From Syntrophothermus lipocalidus DSM 12680 (GTDB taxonomy: Bacteria > Bacillota > Syntrophomonadia > Syntrophomonadales > Syntrophothermaceae), in assembly GCF_000092405.1 (NCBI RefSeq), contig NC_014220.1:1178001-1242000 (forward strand): a stretch of DNA of 64,000 nucleotides, read 5' to 3'. The notes below the pieces were generated by a model that saw nothing but the letters and a program-made list of their open reading frames with translations, was not told where the DNA came from and did no database searches. Each line of letters begins with the position of its first letter. The stretch's first letter is position 1. This document shows positions 1 through 9,076 of the stretch, one piece after another. A program made the translations under genes and the position numbers.

Positions 1-1
1 C

Positions 2-106
2 TTCACTATTGAGGAAGAAGGGGGACATCAAGGGTCTCCAAAAACGTACACACTTACAAAAACACCCGACGGGTGGAAAGCGGACGACGAAGACAGCGGC
101 GAATAA
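2..106 (+). CDS. C-terminal fragment of an unknown protein, cut by the window edge
   Basis: Frame 2 is open from the first base to a TAA at 104-106 and encodes about 34 residues. The peptide is acidic and soluble-looking (reads ...TYTLTKTPDGW... then ...DDEDSGE), in the style of the tail of an ATPase or replication-type protein. The family cannot be named from so little sequence. It is annotated because its composition looks like protein and it ends cleanly before a non-coding stretch. Confidence 0.4.
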   Translation, partial: FTIEEEGGHQGSPKTYTLTKTPDGWKADDEDSGE

Positions 107-366
107 AACAGATACCGCCGAAGGTCAAAATGTCAAAACCGCTATATATATTTTTGAGCTTTGACCTTGGTCAAAGACGGGTTCGTCTGAAGCCGCTGAA
201 GCGGGACCGCGTTGTAGACGACGGTTCCACGCTCGCAGGGCTTCAGCAAACCTTACCCGGCGGCTTCAGGCAGTAAGCCCAAAACAAGAATTATTACCAA
301 ACTTGAGCTTTGAGCTTGATTGTTTGATAACTCTTTCCGATAAATAACCAAAGGGGGTTGGCGCAC
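107..366. other. Non-coding stretch with a near-perfect palindrome and short tandem repeats
   Basis: No convincing gene is present. It holds an inverted repeat, CTTTGACC-TT-GGTCAAAG at 159-176, just downstream of an AT run (tatatatat), and a tandem TTGAGCT repeat around 303-317. An 8+8 bp palindrome next to an AT run resembles a repressor site or a small hairpin, but no clear promoter pairs with it. The open frame at 73-276 looks spurious. Confidence 0.4.
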
Positions 367-645
367 TTGACTGTTCTCCCAAATGAGATTGCACAGCCGC
401 AGGTGATTATCCAATCTGACGGACGCATTAACATACCCAAAAAGGAAGACGGCAGTGTCTGGACGTTAGAAGAATTGAGAGAAAAAATGAAGTGGAGCCG
501 CTGGCCGATGTTCGATGAACTTGAGCCGCTTTTCCGCAGGTGGTGGGAGCTCCGCTACAAAAACCGCTTCCACCGTTACTGGACAGTTGAGGAACTGATG
601 GAGATGAAGGACATCCAGCAGTTTTTAGGGTTAGAGAACAGTTAA
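367..645 (+). CDS. Small hypothetical protein, about 92 aa
   Basis: I do not recognise a family. The protein is rich in Trp and charged residues, with two similar short helices reading WTLEELREKM (about residues 30-40) and WTVEELMEMK (about 72-82), which suggests two copies of a small helical motif. The start is TTG at 367 because the AAAGGGGG Shine-Dalgarno at 350-357 sits about 9 nt upstream; the TTG at 358 touches that site and is too close. The gene lies in an accessory region next to a frameshifted small gene and is probably phage- or plasmid-derived. No membrane segment or signal peptide is visible. Confidence 0.5.
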   Translation: MTVLPNEIAQPQVIIQSDGRINIPKKEDGSVWTLEELREKMKWSRWPMFDELEPLFRRWWELRYKNRFHRYWTVEELMEMKDIQQFLGLENS

Positions 646-671
646 TTTCGATTACTTTTGGAGGAGTTGAC

Positions 672-840
672 TTGATGACGTACCCTGTAAACCTACCAAT
701 GGAGGAAAGGGTACTTTATCCTCTGCGGGAAGCTTGGACTTCTGCACCTCAACAAACCTAAGTACCTTCCCGGCAAGAAGACTCTCATGTTTAAAGCGGT
801 CGCCCGAGAAGTAGAAGTCGTCAAGCCAGTTTACGAATAA
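672..840 (+). pseudogene. Small hypothetical gene with a +1 frameshift
   Basis: A GGAGG site at 659-664 precedes TTG/ATG at 672/675. The first frame reads MTYPVNLPMEER and soon stops at 759-761. The +1 frame, open from 691 to TAA at 838-840, reads YFILCGKLGLL...NKPKYLPGKK...VVKPVYE, which looks like real protein. Joining the two frames near the AAAGGG run at 706-711 gives a plausible protein of about 54 residues. Either one extra G was inserted (mutation or sequencing error) or a +1 slip is used. The family is unknown. Confidence 0.45.
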
Positions 841-1192
841 CTACTTTCACATGGGTATACTTTCTCCAGTGAATAATATTTTAACACCCTGCACGTCGTT
901 AGGAGCACGTCAGATTTGTTACTTGTCCTGATGGGAGATGTATTCCAATGAGGATGGCAAACCCATACCGGTACTGGATTACGGAAATTTCCGGGTTCAC
1001 AAAGTACTAATTCGTTCACCGATGTCTTGCAAGTGGTCTTGCGGCTATAGCACAGTGGAGGAATCCTTCCGGGGTCTAGTTCTCACCATCGGTTTCCATC
1101 CCCGTTTACCCGGTAACACAAATAAACGTCGTCATTCAACCGCCCTTACTGTGGACAGTTTTTTGTTTTTGCTTTAACGGTAGAGCCAACTC
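841..1192. other. Intergenic region, no confident gene
   Basis: About 350 bp separate the frameshifted gene from the promoter at 1193. A short open frame at 903-1010 encodes a protein-like tail (reads CPDGRCIPMRMANPYRYW) but has a stop codon at 900 and no good start, so it may be a decayed small gene. The longer open frames on either strand here look random. Confidence 0.4.
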
Positions 1193-1221
1193 TTGTTGTT
1201 TTTATGAGATTATGATACAAT
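1193..1221 (+). promoter_or_regulatory. Sigma-A type promoter of the DUF5343/HEPN operon
   Basis: TTGTTG at 1193-1198, a 17 bp spacer, then TACAAT at 1216-1221 with an upstream TG giving an extended -10. It lies about 40 bp ahead of the start codon at 1261. Its strength and position indicate that the two-gene module carries its own promoter. Confidence 0.65.
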
Positions 1222-1260
1222 ACAAACAAAAAGAAAAATTTGTAAAGGGAGTTGATAATC

Positions 1261-2028
1261 ATGGCGGTTGAATCAAGCTTGCCTGCTTACACTACAATAG
1301 AGAACATCTTAAAATTAATTGATGCTCTAAGACGAAAAAATAATGATGAAGAAGAAGCTAAGCCTTTATTCGGAATGGGTGATACTGCTTTTAGGAGTAC
1401 CAAATCTGTATTACGAACATTTAACATTATTGAAGAATCAAACACAAATTTTACTGCTACAGGACGTCAAATTGCTTATGCTGGAAATGACGAGGAAAGA
1501 AAAAAGATTATTCTTGAAGTTATCAAGAGGTATCCTCCTTATGAGGCATTATTACATAATATTGCTGAAAAAAAGGAACCAGAAACAGAAATTAACTATA
1601 TTGTTAGTTTTTGGGGAAAATTTAATTATGGTAGTACAGAACGGAACAGAAAAGATGCTGCAACCCTATTTGGTAATATAATAGAGTATATAGGGTTTGG
1701 TACATTTAAAAAAGGACGCAGTAATTATCCAACACGAATTATCTGGAAACCTGGGATTGAGTCTCAAATCCTAAACACTGGTCAGAAATCTGAAGAGCCA
1801 GAAAGGGAGTTTAATGAAGATTCCTTAATCCAACAAAGAGTCGAAGAAAAACAAACTGATAATGGAATACCAGAGCATGAGAAAGATACAGGTTATTCTA
1901 ATCAATATAGGTACATAAACGCAAAAAAAGGTCCATTTATAATAGTTAAAGTTGATATGACAAATTGGCCGGAAGAAAAAATGAAAAATTTTTTTAAACT
2001 TGCATATGGAAACTTTGGGGATGATTAA
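1261..2028 (+). CDS. DUF5343-like winged-helix protein, first gene of a candidate defence operon
   Basis: The product is 255 aa and soluble. Residues 1-100 (LPAYTTIENILKLIDAL, then FRSTKSVLRTFNIIE) resemble the DUF5343 family, a helix-turn-helix-like domain of unknown role often found in accessory regions. A charged low-complexity linker follows (about 165-215), and the C-terminal 30 residues (KGPFIIVKVDMTNWPEEKMKNFF) look like a small separate domain. ATG at 1261 follows AAAGGGAG with good spacing. The stop is 1 bp from the next gene's ATG, so the two are probably translated together. GC content is visibly lower than in the flanking genes, suggesting transfer. The family call is moderate; function is not known. 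Confidence 0.6.
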   Translation: MAVESSLPAYTTIENILKLIDALRRKNNDEEEAKPLFGMGDTAFRSTKSVLRTFNIIEESNTNFTATGRQIAYAGNDEERKKIILEVIKRYPPYEALLHNIAEKKEPETEINYIVSFWGKFNYGSTERNRKDAATLFGNIIEYIGFGTFKKGRSNYPTRIIWKPGIESQILNTGQKSEEPEREFNEDSLIQQRVEEKQTDNGIPEHEKDTGYSNQYRYINAKKGPFIIVKVDMTNWPEEKMKNFFKLAYGNFGDD

Positions 2029-2029
2029 T

Positions 2030-3019
2030 ATGTCATACAAGTTGCCTTCACACAATGTTCCATTAATTCTGGTTGCCGACATCGTTGCTTTTATTAGCAT
2101 GTGTCCAAATAGTACAATAGAAAAAATATGTAATTTTACAGGCAAGAGTTCTTCTTATGTTAGAAGTGGGCTTGCTATTGCAAAAATATTAGGAATAACT
2201 ATACAACAAGAAGATGGGTTAATAGAGGTTACTAAAGAATGTTCAAGTTTATTAGGAAGAACACCTAATATAGAAACCAAAATAACAGTAATGAGAAAAT
2301 ATCTTCAGCAATGGGAACCTTTCATTCTGTTTATAAAGTTTTGTTTAAATGGTAACTCGTTGAACGAGGCGTCAAGGAAGGTTTATGTATTATATGATTT
2401 TCAAGGAAAAGACCCCGACTTTTTGAAAAATCTACTTTTATCCTGGGGTACTACAACTGAAATATTTAGTTTTGATGATAATACCTTAACTTTATCTAAA
2501 GAGATAAATATTAAGACTAAAAATATCTCAAAAGACATTTTATCACTTGACGAAGATATTGCGATTCGATTAGAAGTTGCCAATATTTTAGGGGAAGAGT
2601 CTTTTTCTTATCTCAGCCATGATGAGGTATATGAATTAATTGACGCATTTAAGAAACAGAATAAGGACCCTAGGGGTGCAATAGAATGTGCAGGAAGAGC
2701 ATTTGAAGATTTCTTAAGACGAATTTCAATTGATGTTGGAATAGATGCTTCTAAAGCTATCGGAATCGGTCAGGTCATAAATAGGCTTTATAATAACAAG
2801 AATGGAAAAGGGTTATTAGATAACAAAGTACATTATAAACATTATTCTATTGGTAGTGCTATTGGAGATGTTAGAAATATGGCCGGGCACAGTAAAGAGT
2901 CAAAAACAATGGAAAGATGGAAGTTAACAAAAAACGCCAGTCAAGCTTATTTATTTTTAGTTTTAAGTAGTATTAAAAGTATTTATTCGTATATAAAAAA
3001 AGATGAGTATCTGTTTTAA
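2030..3019 (+). CDS. HEPN-type protein with RNxxxH motif, abortive-infection-like
   Basis: The product is 329 aa. The N-terminal 70 residues look like a winged helix (STIEKICNFTGKSSSYVR). The C-terminal 110 residues are helical and carry RNMAGH around residue 288, matching the RNxxxH signature of HEPN ribonucleases; the segment (AIECAGRAFEDFLRRI ... GDVRNMAGHS) resembles the Abi C-terminal (Abi_C) family. HEPN domains of this type act as RNA-cleaving toxins in several defence systems; that role here is inferred. The start is ATG 2030, one base after the upstream stop; ATG 2021 is a possible alternative. It is AT-rich like its partner. No separate antitoxin is visible, so the DUF5343 protein may be the sensor or restraint. 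Confidence 0.65.
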   Translation: MSYKLPSHNVPLILVADIVAFISMCPNSTIEKICNFTGKSSSYVRSGLAIAKILGITIQQEDGLIEVTKECSSLLGRTPNIETKITVMRKYLQQWEPFILFIKFCLNGNSLNEASRKVYVLYDFQGKDPDFLKNLLLSWGTTTEIFSFDDNTLTLSKEINIKTKNISKDILSLDEDIAIRLEVANILGEESFSYLSHDEVYELIDAFKKQNKDPRGAIECAGRAFEDFLRRISIDVGIDASKAIGIGQVINRLYNNKNGKGLLDNKVHYKHYSIGSAIGDVRNMAGHSKESKTMERWKLTKNASQAYLFLVLSSIKSIYSYIKKDEYLF

Positions 3020-3409
3020 GTATATAGATAATTATTTCTATGAAAATTTAAAGTACCTACATTCTACATTAAGTTATGGATAAGGAGTCAAACTGCTCTA
3101 TGAGAATTCAATAACTATAATGAATGGTAGTGAATCTAAATTTAAGCGATTCCTAAATACTGAAGACTATATAGTTCACCCTTCTCGCAGTGAAATCAAG
3201 CCTTCGTACTGGTATCAACCCTGGGAATCAATTCCTCTGACCTGCGGCGGATTTCGGAGGGTTCAAGGCCTTCCTAAGCCATCAAGGCGGCTTCGTATTC
3301 AATACGCCCGCTTCCGGTGGAAAGATTGCGTCGAAATATGTCTGACAGCCGACAAGCTTGCTAATCCTTTGGATCAACCAGAATCAACCACAAGAACCGC
3401 CTCTCTGGT
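3020..3409. other. Intergenic boundary between AT-rich accessory DNA and the core
   Basis: The first 150 bp are AT-rich like the preceding operon; from about 3220 the composition shifts to that of the core genes. A small hairpin, CGTATT-C-AATACG, lies near 3294-3306. No intrinsic terminator with a T-run and no convincing gene was found. The composition shift probably marks an edge of the acquired segment. Confidence 0.4.
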
Positions 3410-6400
3410 TTACTGCCCCTGCCTCAGTATCTCTTCGACTTTTTCTGCTGGCATAGGTCTGTAAAAGTAAAATCCTTGAACCTCCCGGCAGCTCCACCTG
3501 GTCAAAAACTCGAGCTGTTGCTCTGTCTCTACGCCCTCGGCGACTACCCTCACCCCGATGTTCCTGGCAAGATATAAAATGGCCTTGGCAATGGCTTCAT
3601 CCTTTGGAGTAGTGGGAAGGTCCTGTATTAAGCACATCGCCATCTTGATCCTGTCTACCGGCATCGAGCGTAAACGACCCAGCGAAGAGTATTCACTCCC
3701 AAAATCGTCGATAGCAATTGAAACTCCCAGTTCTTTGAGTTGGCGCAGGGACCTAATAACAGTTTCCGCTTCCTTAACCGCGACGCTTTCAGTGATTTCC
3801 AATTCGAGGTATTGCGGGGGTAAACGTGTATCTTCCAACACGTTTTTGACTATCGCTACCAACTTCGGGTTCTTAAATTGTTCTGGCGACAGGTTAACGG
3901 CAACCCTGATAGGAGGCAGTCCTATATCCTGCCAGCGCTTGTTCTGCTCGCAGGCGGTTCTCAGTACCCATTCGCCTATCGAGTGGATAAGGCCCGACTG
4001 CTCTGCGAGCGGAATGAAAACCGAAGGCTGAACCATCCCTAACCCGGGGTGGTTCCATCGAATCAAGGCTTCTACGCCCGTAATCCTGCCAGTCAAAATA
4101 TCTACTTGAGGCTGGTAGTAGAGGAGCAGTTCTTGCTTTTCCAGAGCCCGATAAAGCCCGTTGATAAGTATCGTCTTCTGCTGTATTTCTCCCCTCATCT
4201 CGCGGGAGTAAAACGCATACCGATTCGTGCCTCGCTCCTTAGAGGCGTTCATAGCCAGATCTGCATTCTTAACAAGGTCTTCCGGGTTTTTCCCATCCAA
4301 AGGGTATACCGAGATACCGGCGTTCGAATTGACAAAGAACTCTTGGTTATGGATCATTACCGGTTTTCGCACGGCTTCTATAATCCGTTCAGCAGTGTCA
4401 GACAGGACATTGTAGGCAGTCACACCGGTCATAACGACAACAAACTCATCTCCTCCAAACCGGCACACTACGTCACCCGGTCGGACACAGTCGGTTATAC
4501 TCTGAGCTATCTTCTTCAGCAGCATGTCCCCAGCTTCATGGCCGATGGTATCGTTTATCTCCTTAAAGGAGTGCAAATCGATGAGTATTATGCCGACTGA
4601 TGTGCCTTTTGCCGCAGCCGTCGATACCGCTTGTTCTAACAGATCCCACATAAGAAACCGATTGGGAAGCCCGGTAAGGTAATCGTAATACGCCAAACGA
4701 TAGACTTCTTGTTCGGACTTTATCCTGGCAAAGGCATGAGCCAAAATATTAGCAATAATTTGCAGGGTTTCCAGATGGTCTGCACGCCATTGGGCATCTT
4801 GCGATAGAGCTTGAATTTCCAAATATCCTATCGGACGGTGGCTGCTTTCGAGATAAACAGCCAGCATCGACTTGGTACCACATGCCAGAAGAAGCTTTTT
4901 GCTCTCAGGGGGTAATTCGGGCACCCTCTCGATATCCGGCATGAACAAGCGCTTTTTCTCTTTAAGCTGCTCCGTCAGCCAAGAATGATAGGAATCCCGC
5001 TGGTCAAACGGAGTGCTAGAAGGGTCAGTGCTGTCGGCGCGCCATTCGTAGGCCCGGACCGCCGACTTGTTATACTCTGAAAAAATAACGAGATGAGCCA
5101 GGTCTGCTCGGTAAAGTTTCCCGATGGTTTCGAGCGCTTTATCCACCTTGGTATCAAAATTTTCGGCGCTTACCGTGGCAAAATCCGCGGACATACTAGA
5201 AATAACTTGCTGCAGGCCAACTTGTTCTTCGTTTTCTTGCAGCCTCTGCATATAGATACGGTTTACCAGAAAAGCAAAAAACGCTCCGAAGAGGTAGACG
5301 ATAATCCTTGACATGTGCTCGAAAGGCCCAACGGTCAGCTCTTTTCTGGGCAGTTCTAACCATAACCAGAGCTCCGTGACTACAGCAGCAGCCACGATGG
5401 TTATGAGGATGCGTCTGGCCGAAAAGACACAAGCCGTCAACATGAGGAGCAGGGGGAACGACCAAACAATGTTGGCGGCGTTGATGTTTTTCGTGTAATA
5501 CGTCATGGAAAAGACGAAACCAGCTACCACCGCCGCCATGACCGTGTCTTGAACGCCGCTGGGCAACGGCAGGAAGGGGAGAGACAACACTAGCAAGCAA
5601 CAGGCAAACATTACCAAGCTTATCCACAACATTACTTGGAGGTCTACTCCCCATACGAAATAGAGCAGGAGATTAAACACCCCCCCTGCCCCTGACGCCA
5701 CTCCTATGAAGAAATAAACCTGCCGGCGCTGTATCTCGCTCAGAATATGCCCCGTTTCTGCTATCCTAGTTTCTGAAGGCAACATCAAACCGTAGCGTTT
5801 GATACAGTAAAGAAAGGTAGCTATTGGGATGATTATGAAGACAGATGCTAATTGGGGGACTTTAAGCGGGGTATAAGCATTCAGGAAAACGTCGAAAGCA
5901 GCGCCCAAGACAAAAGCAAGCAAAAAAGAAAAAAGCAATATGCGGGATTGGGTTTTTTCCCTCTTGTCCTCAGTTTCGCAGCGCCAACGCCAGAGGAGCC
6001 ACATGGCTGCGACATCAAAGCCGACGAAGTATACGTTGAAGTACAAATCCCACAAGTTGTTCGCAAAGACGTTTGTCCAGCCCGTGCCTGTTTTTACTAG
6101 GACATGCTGGACGGAAGACCATTCCTCGCTTGCTCCAAAAACGTAGACGTTTATTATCGCAGGCACGTAGAGCAAGAAATAAACCCACGGTTTTGAAAGT
6201 AGTCTGTGCCGCCCGGTCATACTCAGGCAGAGATGGACGAGTACGCTGTGGAAAGTGCCCCAACCCAGAGCTGATAAGCGTCTCCAAAAAAGCGCAGTGT
6301 GATAATCCGGCGCCGATATTACGATGGAATATGTAAAGGTCCATACACAAAGCGTTAAGCACGCCGCAGCGAACAACCGGTTGGTGAGGGCCCTGCTGTT

Positions 6401-6484
6401 CAGGAACAGTACGTAAGCACCGAAACAGAAGTATGTAAAGAACGCAGCTAGGTAAACGAGCGAGAATACTGTAGGAAGACTCAT
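3410..6484 (-). CDS. Membrane GGDEF-EAL cyclic-di-GMP signalling protein
   Basis: The protein is 1024 aa. The N-terminus resembles the 7TM sensor region of histidine kinases (about 1-230), followed by a second multi-helix membrane block (about 250-410), a GAF-like domain (about 430-590), a GGDEF domain and an EAL domain. GGDEF is intact (FGGDEF), and an RxxD inhibitory site (RPGD) sits five residues upstream, so it should be a diguanylate cyclase with product feedback. The EAL domain keeps EAL, the NLSPEQF Asn, ELEITES, DDFG and AEGVE, but the usual KID motif reads K947-M-A949, so its Asp is lost and phosphodiesterase activity is uncertain. It could feed the riboswitch and PilB near 48-51 kb. 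It appears monocistronic. Confidence 0.9.
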   Translation of the reverse strand: MSLPTVFSLVYLAAFFTYFCFGAYVLFLNSRALTNRLFAAACLTLCVWTFTYSIVISAPDYHTALFWRRLSALGWGTFHSVLVHLCLSMTGRHRLLSKPWVYFLLYVPAIINVYVFGASEEWSSVQHVLVKTGTGWTNVFANNLWDLYFNVYFVGFDVAAMWLLWRWRCETEDKREKTQSRILLFSFLLAFVLGAAFDVFLNAYTPLKVPQLASVFIIIPIATFLYCIKRYGLMLPSETRIAETGHILSEIQRRQVYFFIGVASGAGGVFNLLLYFVWGVDLQVMLWISLVMFACCLLVLSLPFLPLPSGVQDTVMAAVVAGFVFSMTYYTKNINAANIVWSFPLLLMLTACVFSARRILITIVAAAVVTELWLWLELPRKELTVGPFEHMSRIIVYLFGAFFAFLVNRIYMQRLQENEEQVGLQQVISSMSADFATVSAENFDTKVDKALETIGKLYRADLAHLVIFSEYNKSAVRAYEWRADSTDPSSTPFDQRDSYHSWLTEQLKEKKRLFMPDIERVPELPPESKKLLLACGTKSMLAVYLESSHRPIGYLEIQALSQDAQWRADHLETLQIIANILAHAFARIKSEQEVYRLAYYDYLTGLPNRFLMWDLLEQAVSTAAAKGTSVGIILIDLHSFKEINDTIGHEAGDMLLKKIAQSITDCVRPGDVVCRFGGDEFVVVMTGVTAYNVLSDTAERIIEAVRKPVMIHNQEFFVNSNAGISVYPLDGKNPEDLVKNADLAMNASKERGTNRYAFYSREMRGEIQQKTILINGLYRALEKQELLLYYQPQVDILTGRITGVEALIRWNHPGLGMVQPSVFIPLAEQSGLIHSIGEWVLRTACEQNKRWQDIGLPPIRVAVNLSPEQFKNPKLVAIVKNVLEDTRLPPQYLELEITESVAVKEAETVIRSLRQLKELGVSIAIDDFGSEYSSLGRLRSMPVDRIKMAMCLIQDLPTTPKDEAIAKAILYLARNIGVRVVAEGVETEQQLEFLTRWSCREVQGFYFYRPMPAEKVEEILRQGQ

Positions 6485-6589
6485 GGCGCTACCTTCCTTG
6501 CTCTATTTGTTTTGTACTTGAGAGACCATCTCTAAAGCAGTTCACTTCTTAGGCCGAACCGTCGATCCAGGAAAGGCTTAAATCGCTTT

Positions 6590-8464
6590 TTATTGTTGTA
6601 AAGATGGTTTTTCCTGCAAGTATAGGGCGTCTAGGTTCAAGCTGTGACGAATAATATCGTTCCGGGGATCGACCGATATTTCGATGTCATTGAAGACCAA
6701 CATGACCTTCACTTCAGGGGTCTCCAATTTCAGAATCATGTCCTCAGCATTCCCCACCTGCGGTTGCACACCGCGGCCCGGCGGGTATTTTCCAGCTATT
6801 CTGTCAATGTACGAGTTCATGTCTTCGTTCAGGATTTCTTTGTCATTGAGTGTGATCCTCAGCGTTGGAATTCCGTAGGCAGGATCGATGTTCCAGTAGA
6901 TTTTGTAAGAGCCACGGTCGCCATTTATCGTTACCGGATTCTGCTCTATTCCGTAGTTCTCCTGGGAACTCACTGCCCAGCGATAAGCACTGATATCAAC
7001 CGCTCCAGCGGGTCTGTGAAGGATAGTTGCCATGTAATCCCCGCCAATGTCCGGCGTTTCTGGTTTGGGCCATGCCTGCTCGAATCCCAGCTTGGCCTTG
7101 AATGTCTCATTGTAGGCTAGATCCCTGTCAAACCAGGACGGCAATTCGACGTCCTGGGAAGCAGCAAGAAAAACTACCGCGTCGGTTATCGATTCGCGGA
7201 CCGATAATTCAGGTTCGGTAGCCGCGGGCACCAGTTTGCCGTCCTTAAGCATACCCTGGCTCACCAGCAGATTCTGCAGGCGGTTGACTTGAAACGCCAC
7301 CGGCAGCGCATGATATCCGATGACGGGAAAAACCGAGAAAATCGCCAGGACGCAAGCCAAGACGACTATCGGTTGGTGAGCTTTATCCTTTTTAACTATC
7401 AGCCACACTGCTCCCGCTACAGCCAATATCCAGATAATAATGAACCAGTATTCTGCAGTTTTGAGACCAGAAGCGCTGAGTTGTATCCAAAGGGCCCGGG
7501 CCTCGAAGGCTAAAATCACCAACGCCGCGTATGGATAGAACCGGCGATAGAATTGGGCCAGGTTGGATTCATGATGGGTGACCATTATGTGCAGCCAAAT
7601 ACCTCCGATCGCATAACTAGTCGCGATCGACGAGAGCCGGCTGAATGGGACTGCCACTCCAGTTACTAATGATTTGACTGTCCAGATTAACAGAACCACG
7701 GTCAGGGCAGTCATAATGGGCACCATAATGGAGGAAAATAGTACCGCCACGAAACGTGGCTGCTGCTGAGCTTCCTGTCGGCGCGGATCTACCACGCCCC
7801 TTCGGAAGTCAGGGAAGTAACCGACGAAAATAGCAAAAGCCAGGAAACCGCTCAGGGTTCCTATATACATGTAGACCTTTTCACTCATAGCATTGTATAG
7901 CAAGGCCTGAACCGCTCCCGCCACTCCAGAAAGCCCGGCCATGATGGTTCCACCGTAGATCAAAGCAACAAAAAATGCCTTCAGAGTCATAAATGAGGAC
8001 CGGGCAAAATCAGACTGGTCCTTTGGGTATCCGGCCAGCATTACAAATAGCAAGAAACTTACCAGCATAGCCGCACTGACCCGGGCGGCAGCAAGACGAG
8101 AAACTACCCTGTACCGGTATCCGGTCGAGACGGGATCAGTCCCACCAAAATAATATAAGGCGAGAAAAGTCACTACTGCTGCTAAGATGCCCAGTAAGTT
8201 GGCGAGCAGAAATGCTTTCCTCTTACTATAAAGGGTCTGCGCCGCCGTTATAGCCGCCAGACTGAAAATCGCGCCCAGAGCTAGCGACAAATGCAGACAA
8301 TTGAAGAGAAAATTGTACGGTTCCTGCTGCGGCCAATCAAGATTAATCCTGATTATGGTTACGACAGCAAACGCCAGCGCGCTGAGCATCGCAGCCGGGA
8401 ATTTCTTGAAAGCGTTGAGCGCATCCGTTGATAATTTAATAATCTTCCCTAAGAAAGCATTCAA
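6590..8464 (-). CDS. DUF4153 family membrane protein
   Basis: About 624 aa. The first 390 residues form roughly eleven hydrophobic segments. The remainder is soluble, probably extracytoplasmic, and contains patterns such as DISAYRWAV and GSYKIYWNID typical of DUF4153 proteins, whose function is unknown. I favour the TTG start at 8464 because GGAGGG lies 7 nt upstream; the GTG at 8479 sits directly against a G-run. No operon partner is evident. Confidence 0.7.
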   Translation of the reverse strand: MNAFLGKIIKLSTDALNAFKKFPAAMLSALAFAVVTIIRINLDWPQQEPYNFLFNCLHLSLALGAIFSLAAITAAQTLYSKRKAFLLANLLGILAAVVTFLALYYFGGTDPVSTGYRYRVVSRLAAARVSAAMLVSFLLFVMLAGYPKDQSDFARSSFMTLKAFFVALIYGGTIMAGLSGVAGAVQALLYNAMSEKVYMYIGTLSGFLAFAIFVGYFPDFRRGVVDPRRQEAQQQPRFVAVLFSSIMVPIMTALTVVLLIWTVKSLVTGVAVPFSRLSSIATSYAIGGIWLHIMVTHHESNLAQFYRRFYPYAALVILAFEARALWIQLSASGLKTAEYWFIIIWILAVAGAVWLIVKKDKAHQPIVVLACVLAIFSVFPVIGYHALPVAFQVNRLQNLLVSQGMLKDGKLVPAATEPELSVRESITDAVVFLAASQDVELPSWFDRDLAYNETFKAKLGFEQAWPKPETPDIGGDYMATILHRPAGAVDISAYRWAVSSQENYGIEQNPVTINGDRGSYKIYWNIDPAYGIPTLRITLNDKEILNEDMNSYIDRIAGKYPPGRGVQPQVGNAEDMILKLETPEVKVMLVFNDIEISVDPRNDIIRHSLNLDALYLQEKPSLQQ

Positions 8465-8629
8465 ATCCTGGCCCTCCACTCCCCCAGCAATAAACTGAAC
8501 CGGTCTTGTAGCTTATAGACACTTAAACATACGTACACCGTTCGACTAAGGTCGCAACAATCCTGCCTGGAGAATTACAATTATGCAAAAAGCAAGCTGT
8601 GCAAAATATGGTTGGCATCGCTCTACGAT

Positions 8630-9076
8630 TCACCGTCCAACTGAACCGTCACCGACCGATAACCAAAGCCCTTCACCCCATGCGGCTGCATTCAGGCGTC
8701 TGTCGAAAGTGAGAAGGCCTAGTTCTGGCAGATCCTGTTTCAACCTCACGGCCAAAGCCAGATGCCATAAGTCGGCTCCCCGCAAAGGCCATTTCCGCGC
8801 CAAGGAAGCTATGTCAGAAGGCAGAGGATCAAGGCGAACCAAACGCCACGGACCTTGGGAAAAAGCTTCCAATGCAGCCTTCACGAGGATATCTGCCAGG
8901 TAACCCTCGCGGTTCATGCGGTTCAAAACAGCGTGGACCTCAGCTACCACGAGCGAGGATATCAAGTGATAAGCTTTTTTACGCGCTGACTCCCAAGCCT
9001 GATCGCTGTGTCTGTCCTTTACCAGTGCAGAAAGCACCGCTGAACTGTCCCAGTACAGTACGGAATCCGGCGGCAT
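8630..9076 (-). CDS. VapC-type PIN-domain toxin
   Basis: 148 aa. The PIN-domain acidic residues are all present: Asp in YWDSSAVL (about residue 10), Glu in SSLVVAEV (about 46), Asp in RGADLWHLA (about 100) and Asp in LTFDRRL (about 124). PIN toxins of this family are Mg-dependent endoribonucleases cutting tRNA or rRNA. The start codon overlaps the stop of the upstream antitoxin gene (TAATG), the usual layout of a toxin-antitoxin operon. Confidence 0.88.
   Translation of the reverse strand: MPPDSVLYWDSSAVLSALVKDRHSDQAWESARKKAYHLISSLVVAEVHAVLNRMNREGYLADILVKAALEAFSQGPWRLVRLDPLPSDIASLARKWPLRGADLWHLALAVRLKQDLPELGLLTFDRRLNAAAWGEGLWLSVGDGSVGR

Follow-up and report, generated by a model that had tools for sequence, protein, structure and literature searches.

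Catalytic HEPN domains are RNases, and the architecture in which a DUF5343-type protein accompanies a HEPN protein is already known, being catalogued by PADLOC as the candidate PDC-M34. Its component M34A is a DUF5343 protein and M34B a HEPN_Swt1 protein, and the name covers the Swt1-like kind. A literature search found no mention of PDC-M34. The preliminary description of the locus reported here knew of no described system with this pairing, a claim that the catalogue entry overturns.

A search of 399 genomes found seven DUF5343 genes. In five cases a HEPN gene follows, at a distance of at most 16 bp or overlapping. These partners are of different HEPN types: Swt1-like with the motif RNVIMH (L053 and L054), Ymh with RNPRAH (L044), and two proteins with RNECAH/RHECAH (L045 and L055) that match no Pfam family and were judged HEPN-like from the motif. 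Ymh has been reported in restriction–modification (R-M) operons (PMC3710099). In G231 (L055:1658-8480), the RNECAH pair is flanked by PglXI and BrxHI, both part of a BREX locus. All five HEPN-paired DUF5343 proteins end in a strand–helix tail, which takes the form NIQIxLPExxDxxVYDxIFxSLKxHL in four of them; neither of the two unpaired proteins has this tail.

A two-gene unit and its candidate control region

The window, a stretch of 64,000 nucleotides from the Syntrophothermus lipocalidus genome (2,405,559 bp, one contig), contains two genes separated by 1 bp on the plus strand, each present in a single copy in the genome. The features of the unit and its surroundings are as follows, in window coordinates unless stated otherwise.

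1191..1234, no strand: possible operator, an imperfect inverted repeat (1191-1205 with 1220-1234) that overlaps a candidate extended -10 promoter
1261..2028, plus strand: gene 1, 255 aa (ATG at 1261, stop at 2028), DUF5343-like winged-helix partner protein
1270..1698, plus strand: gene 1 residues 4-146, DUF5343-like, winged-helix-like module (profile alignment over 131 columns)
1924..2025, plus strand: gene 1 residues 222-255, C-terminal tail, strand then helix (FIIVKVDMTNWPEEKMKNFF); proposed HEPN-docking element
2030..3019, plus strand: gene 2, 329 aa (ATG at 2030, stop at 3019), N-terminal gene-1-like module and C-terminal HEPN domain
2030..2545, plus strand: gene 2 residues 1-172, module homologous to gene 1
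2588..3016, plus strand: gene 2 residues 187-329, predicted HEPN domain, Abi_C/Ymh-like
2705..2719, plus strand: E226-x3-R230, second HEPN signature (Ex3[KR]), invariant in three homologues
2873..2890, plus strand: RNMAGH, HEPN Rx4-6H catalytic motif, gene 2 residues 282-287
3208..3365, plus strand: relic, 124 bp sharing 91% identity with a stretch of a DegV-family gene, followed by 32 bp that match the gene after it
L010:2844-8922 (genome 1164843-1170921), strand opposite to the pair: complete type I R-M operon, upstream of the window

The GC content is 32.8% in gene 1 and 31.3% in gene 2, with a GC3 of 21-24%, compared with 51% for the published S. lipocalidus TGB-C1 genome (PMC3035303), which is consistent with a foreign origin of the pair. 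This bore out the AT-rich bicistronic unit of the preliminary description, and its coordinates were confirmed.

A ribosome-binding site, AAAGGGAG, precedes gene 1 at 1244-1251. The unit had also been credited with a strong promoter of its own, a claim that stood in part: a candidate extended -10 element, TGA-TACAAT (1213-1221), was found by eye, but the accompanying -35 (TTGTTG, 1193-1198), at a distance of 17 nt, is poor, and a consensus promoter scan returned no sigma-70 site upstream of gene 1 on the plus strand at its cut-off. Both elements fall within the 15-nt inverted repeat, in which 13 of 15 positions pair. Dinucleotide-preserving shuffles matched this repeat in 2 of 300 cases for a 131-bp region and in none of 300 for an 80-bp region, and the repeat is a possible operator. 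We saw nothing equivalent upstream of the related pair in genome G430 described below. An Rfam scan of window positions 1-9000 gave no match.

Shared modules and a predicted HEPN domain

Searches of curated libraries (Pfam, PADLOC, NCBIfam, PHROGs and PDB) with both proteins returned nothing above threshold, and Foldseek found no significant match with single-sequence models, of which that of gene 1 had a pLDDT of 54. Profile–profile comparisons did give matches; their E-values refer to single comparisons, not to database searches. Residues 4-146 of the gene 1 protein aligned end to end with a profile of seven DUF5343 proteins (hhalign, 95.5%, E 1.5e-8, 131 columns; at most 2.7% in 60 shuffled controls), whereas comparison with three DUF5343 proteins only gave 18%. 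The Pfam DUF5343 model (PF17278; gathering score 27 bits) did not detect gene 1, and matched nothing in the whole Syntrophothermus genome. On these alignments gene 1 is only remotely homologous to DUF5343 and not a member under the curated Pfam rule; its earlier assignment as DUF5343-like holds by profile–profile comparison only. The body of the protein also resembles AAA_assoc_C (PF09821; hhalign, 95.1%, E 3e-8), a domain found beside nitrate/sulfonate-type ABC ATPases, but gene 1 lacks an ABC transporter context and its Pfam match reaches 15 bits against a cut-off of 27.6.

The C-terminal end of gene 1 (FIIVKVDMTNWPEEKMKNFFKLA) resembles the tails of the HEPN-paired DUF5343 proteins. Tail-to-tail comparison with hhalign gave a score of 18.2, against a maximum of 13.0 in 100 shuffles, at a probability of only 18.5%, a weak match. 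From this resemblance we infer that the tail could dock the HEPN protein. A homologue of gene 1 in Thermomicrobium (T. roseum) also has the tail, yet no neighbouring HEPN gene was identified there; this speaks against a role strictly in HEPN docking.

For gene 2, we compared the C-terminal part with Abi_C and Ymh profiles built from family members gathered in this analysis. The match to Abi_C was 83.1% (E 9e-6, 101 columns), with the RN..GH motifs in register; the match to Ymh was 81.0%, with the motif likewise in register and just 38 columns around it aligned. Column-shuffled controls reached at most 1.3% for Abi_C and 3.0% for Ymh. By contrast, gene 2 lies below detection by the Pfam models Abi_C (PF14355) and Hypoth_Ymh (PF09509), with no match at E-values of up to 10 for Abi_C. 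A single-sequence AlphaFold (AF2) model of the C-terminal part was all-helical, with a pLDDT of 65 that fell below 50 in the RN region.

The hallmarks of the HEPN superfamily are an Rx4-6H motif, a polar residue after the arginine and an Ex3[KR] signature (PMC3710099). Gene 2 has all of these, the Ex3[KR] lying upstream. The three intact gene 2 homologues found (the window protein and two relatives) all share residues R282, N283, G286 and H287, and in them the motif reads RNMAGH (window), RNMSGH (G430) and RNPSGGH (Haladaptatus), the spacing being Rx4H in the window protein and Rx5H in Haladaptatus. The earlier reading of RNMAGH as a HEPN signature in an Abi_C-like context was thus sustained.

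Unexpectedly, the front of gene 2 matches gene 1. Residues 1-172 aligned with the gene 1 profile at 84.2% (E 7e-6, 118 columns), and 40 shuffles gave at most 0.6%. Because of this match, a single ancestral module appears to have given rise both to gene 1 and to the front of gene 2. This homology between the N-terminal regions likewise supports the winged-helix-like starts proposed earlier for both proteins.

Conservation of the pair and its neighbourhoods

Among 399 genomes of the phylum, an intact gene 2 was present in two, Syntrophothermus (G000) and G430, and strong gene 1 matches were confined to the same two. In G430, gene 1 precedes gene 2 with a gap of 2 bp, and the two proteins are 45% and 50% identical to those of the window. 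Translated searches located a further homologue of gene 2, carried by a plasmid of Haladaptatus (29% identity at E 1e-29 in the search, and 30% in the comparison of the three homologues), and gene 1 homologues in Thermomicrobium and Halobacterium plasmids. The gene that converges on gene 2 in Haladaptatus encodes a protein with a gene 1 homologue as its C-terminal half. Gene 1 therefore adjoins gene 2 in all three intact cases, and the pair is kept together elsewhere, as the preliminary description had proposed to check. The family is rare, and with three intact pairs the neighbourhood statistics are thin.

In G020, a relative of the window genome, gene 2 survives as a fragment of 46 residues (67% identity) flanked by intact genes (L009:5089-5343), which suggests an earlier loss of the module in that relative. 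Pattern scans of genome and viral contigs found no gene 2 relatives, although they used short peptide patterns and do not imply absence; the phage records searched gave no match. Several weaker matches to gene 1 were set aside. The G234 match is of the AAA_assoc_C type and is encoded next to an ABC transporter, and those in G378, G106 and G130, for which no HEPN partner was seen, map to or next to a histidine kinase, HemN/HrcA-type genes and a 151-aa open reading frame without assignment.

The pair had been placed in an accessory zone, and its surroundings confirm this: at 7-16 kb upstream are found the type I R-M operon and a gene for a serine recombinase. Other genes upstream of the window start encode LysM, UDG-like, GreA-like and AAA proteins. 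The relic on the other side derives from L010:1351-1474 and 1913-1944, 17.9 kb upstream; it is a decayed partial duplication, and the accessory zone has its right edge here. The relic and its DegV-family source bracket the R-M operon, the serine recombinase and the pair. No tRNA was found in the 20 kb around the pair. In another genome, G096 (L046:4321-7473), an HsdR very similar to that of Syntrophothermus is encoded near a solo DUF5343 gene. Further along the window, at 8630-9076 on the minus strand, is a gene for a PIN-domain (VapC-like) protein, a possible toxin–antitoxin component.

In G430, genes for BrxF, PglZ (divided between two frames), BrxA and Mrr come before the pair, and one for an MkoA-like helicase comes after it. 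The genes at this locus (L008:4010-7783) are BREX type 3-like and in apparent decay, with BrxF joined to a piece of PglX and the two PglZ frames overlapping. On the Haladaptatus plasmid, a gene for a PbeA-like helicase lies upstream of gene 2. All three pairs in this small sample are thus near restriction, BREX or defence-type helicase genes, a kind of association that the preliminary description had proposed to check.

A candidate two-component HEPN module

Like PDC-M34, the window pair comprises two tandem genes, the DUF5343-like one first and the HEPN one second, with a spacing of a few base pairs and defence surroundings. This order holds in the window and in G430, whereas the Haladaptatus genes are convergent. 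Three differences separate the pair from PDC-M34. Gene 1 and gene 2 match no M34 model at E-values of up to 10, and the PADLOC models matched neither the window proteins nor their homologues; the HEPN domain of gene 2 is Abi_C/Ymh-like and scored 0.2% against the M34B HEPN domains; and gene 2 carries an additional N-terminal module related to gene 1. Assignment of the gene 2 HEPN domain to the PDC-M34B or the RNECAH type was rejected, as neither gave a profile match (0.2% and 0.1%). Because no PDC-M34 model matches, the pair is probably a divergent form of that system, in which the effector is Abi_C-like and the winged-helix module is present twice. The new element is a far more divergent branch missed by the models searched, with another HEPN type and a partner-related module in the effector, in bacteria and haloarchaea.

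Our preferred reading, to which we assign a probability of about 0.62, is that the pair is a two-component HEPN-RNase defence module of the abortive-infection type and a divergent relative of PDC-M34. Its computed basis is the operon, the conserved HEPN signature, the relationship by homology that links gene 1 with DUF5343 and with the N-terminus of gene 2, the pairing in three distant genomes and the defence neighbours. Gene 2 would be the effector, a latent Abi_C-like HEPN ribonuclease whose N-terminal module is shared with gene 1; its RNase activity would follow from what is established about catalytic HEPN domains. Gene 1 would be the control partner, repressing its own promoter and keeping gene 2 inactive through heteromeric contact of the related modules, through its C-terminal strand–helix tail, or both. 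The presence of related modules in both proteins suggests such a heteromeric complex. A phage, another invader or stress would disturb the complex and so free or activate the HEPN domain, which would then cut RNA and cause growth arrest. We infer the RNase activity, the restraint by gene 1, the autoregulation, the trigger and the defence role alike.

The main rival is a plain type II toxin–antitoxin (addiction) system, in which gene 1 would be antitoxin and autorepressor and gene 2 a HEPN toxin, serving the maintenance of a mobile element with no phage sensing. The bicistron with its 1-bp spacing, the candidate operator over the promoter, the mobile surroundings with a serine recombinase and the homologue on a plasmid all fit such a system, and HEPN toxins are common in modules of this kind (PMC3710099). 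However, both proteins are larger than those of usual toxin–antitoxin pairs, gene 2 contains a module homologous to its own partner, and the neighbours are restriction or BREX genes; moreover, the Haladaptatus pair is convergent rather than an operon, a poor fit to toxin–antitoxin regulation. We consider addiction alone unlikely. Another rival is a backup effector dedicated to a given R-M or BREX system nearby: the pair would monitor that system or be set off when it fails, with no phage sensing of its own. HEPN domains have been described as backup RNases in R-M/BREX-type loci (PMC3710099, PMC12839542), and the proximity of type I R-M genes in the window genome, of BREX remnants and Mrr in G430 and of BREX genes around the analogous pair in G231 points the same way. 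The neighbouring system varies, though, from type I R-M to BREX type 3 to a PbeA-like helicase; the R-M genes lie more than 8 kb from the window pair on the other strand; and the DUF5343–HEPN pair at L053 has no such system in the stretch read. Dedication to a particular neighbour is improbable in our estimation.

Least probable is that the two proteins are transcription regulators whose winged-helix parts bind DNA, the HEPN-like bundle being only a dimerisation or ligand domain. Winged-helix-like modules do occur in both proteins, and catalysis has been lost in some HEPN domains (PMC3710099), but the catalytic R, N and H and the E..R pair are invariant across the bacterial and archaeal homologues, which would be needless in a non-catalytic bundle.

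The pair, which the PADLOC 2.0.0 defence models miss entirely, extends the PDC-M34 candidate to a far more divergent, cross-domain family. It also makes the trigger and restraint of HEPN effectors testable in a system of only two genes; being compact and from a thermophile, this system should suit structural work. The range of partners suggests a rule of one DUF5343-type partner with interchangeable HEPN RNases. A bolder version of this idea, which we put forward only tentatively, is that the DUF5343-like protein is a shared platform onto which unrelated HEPN RNases (Swt1-like PDC-M34B, Ymh, RNECAH and Abi_C-like) have been swapped, with the tail as their common docking element; here, a copy of the platform might also have become part of the effector, so that sensor and effector would form a self-paired complex, one that would have passed between bacteria and haloarchaea.

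On the Halobacterium hubeiense plasmid (L005:7989-11769), the gene 1 homologue is followed by a gene for a DUF87 (HerA-type) ATPase. No HEPN gene was noticed among the listed neighbours, which include a second protein with tandem AAA-associated-like modules, and the locus is possibly a related system with a different effector.
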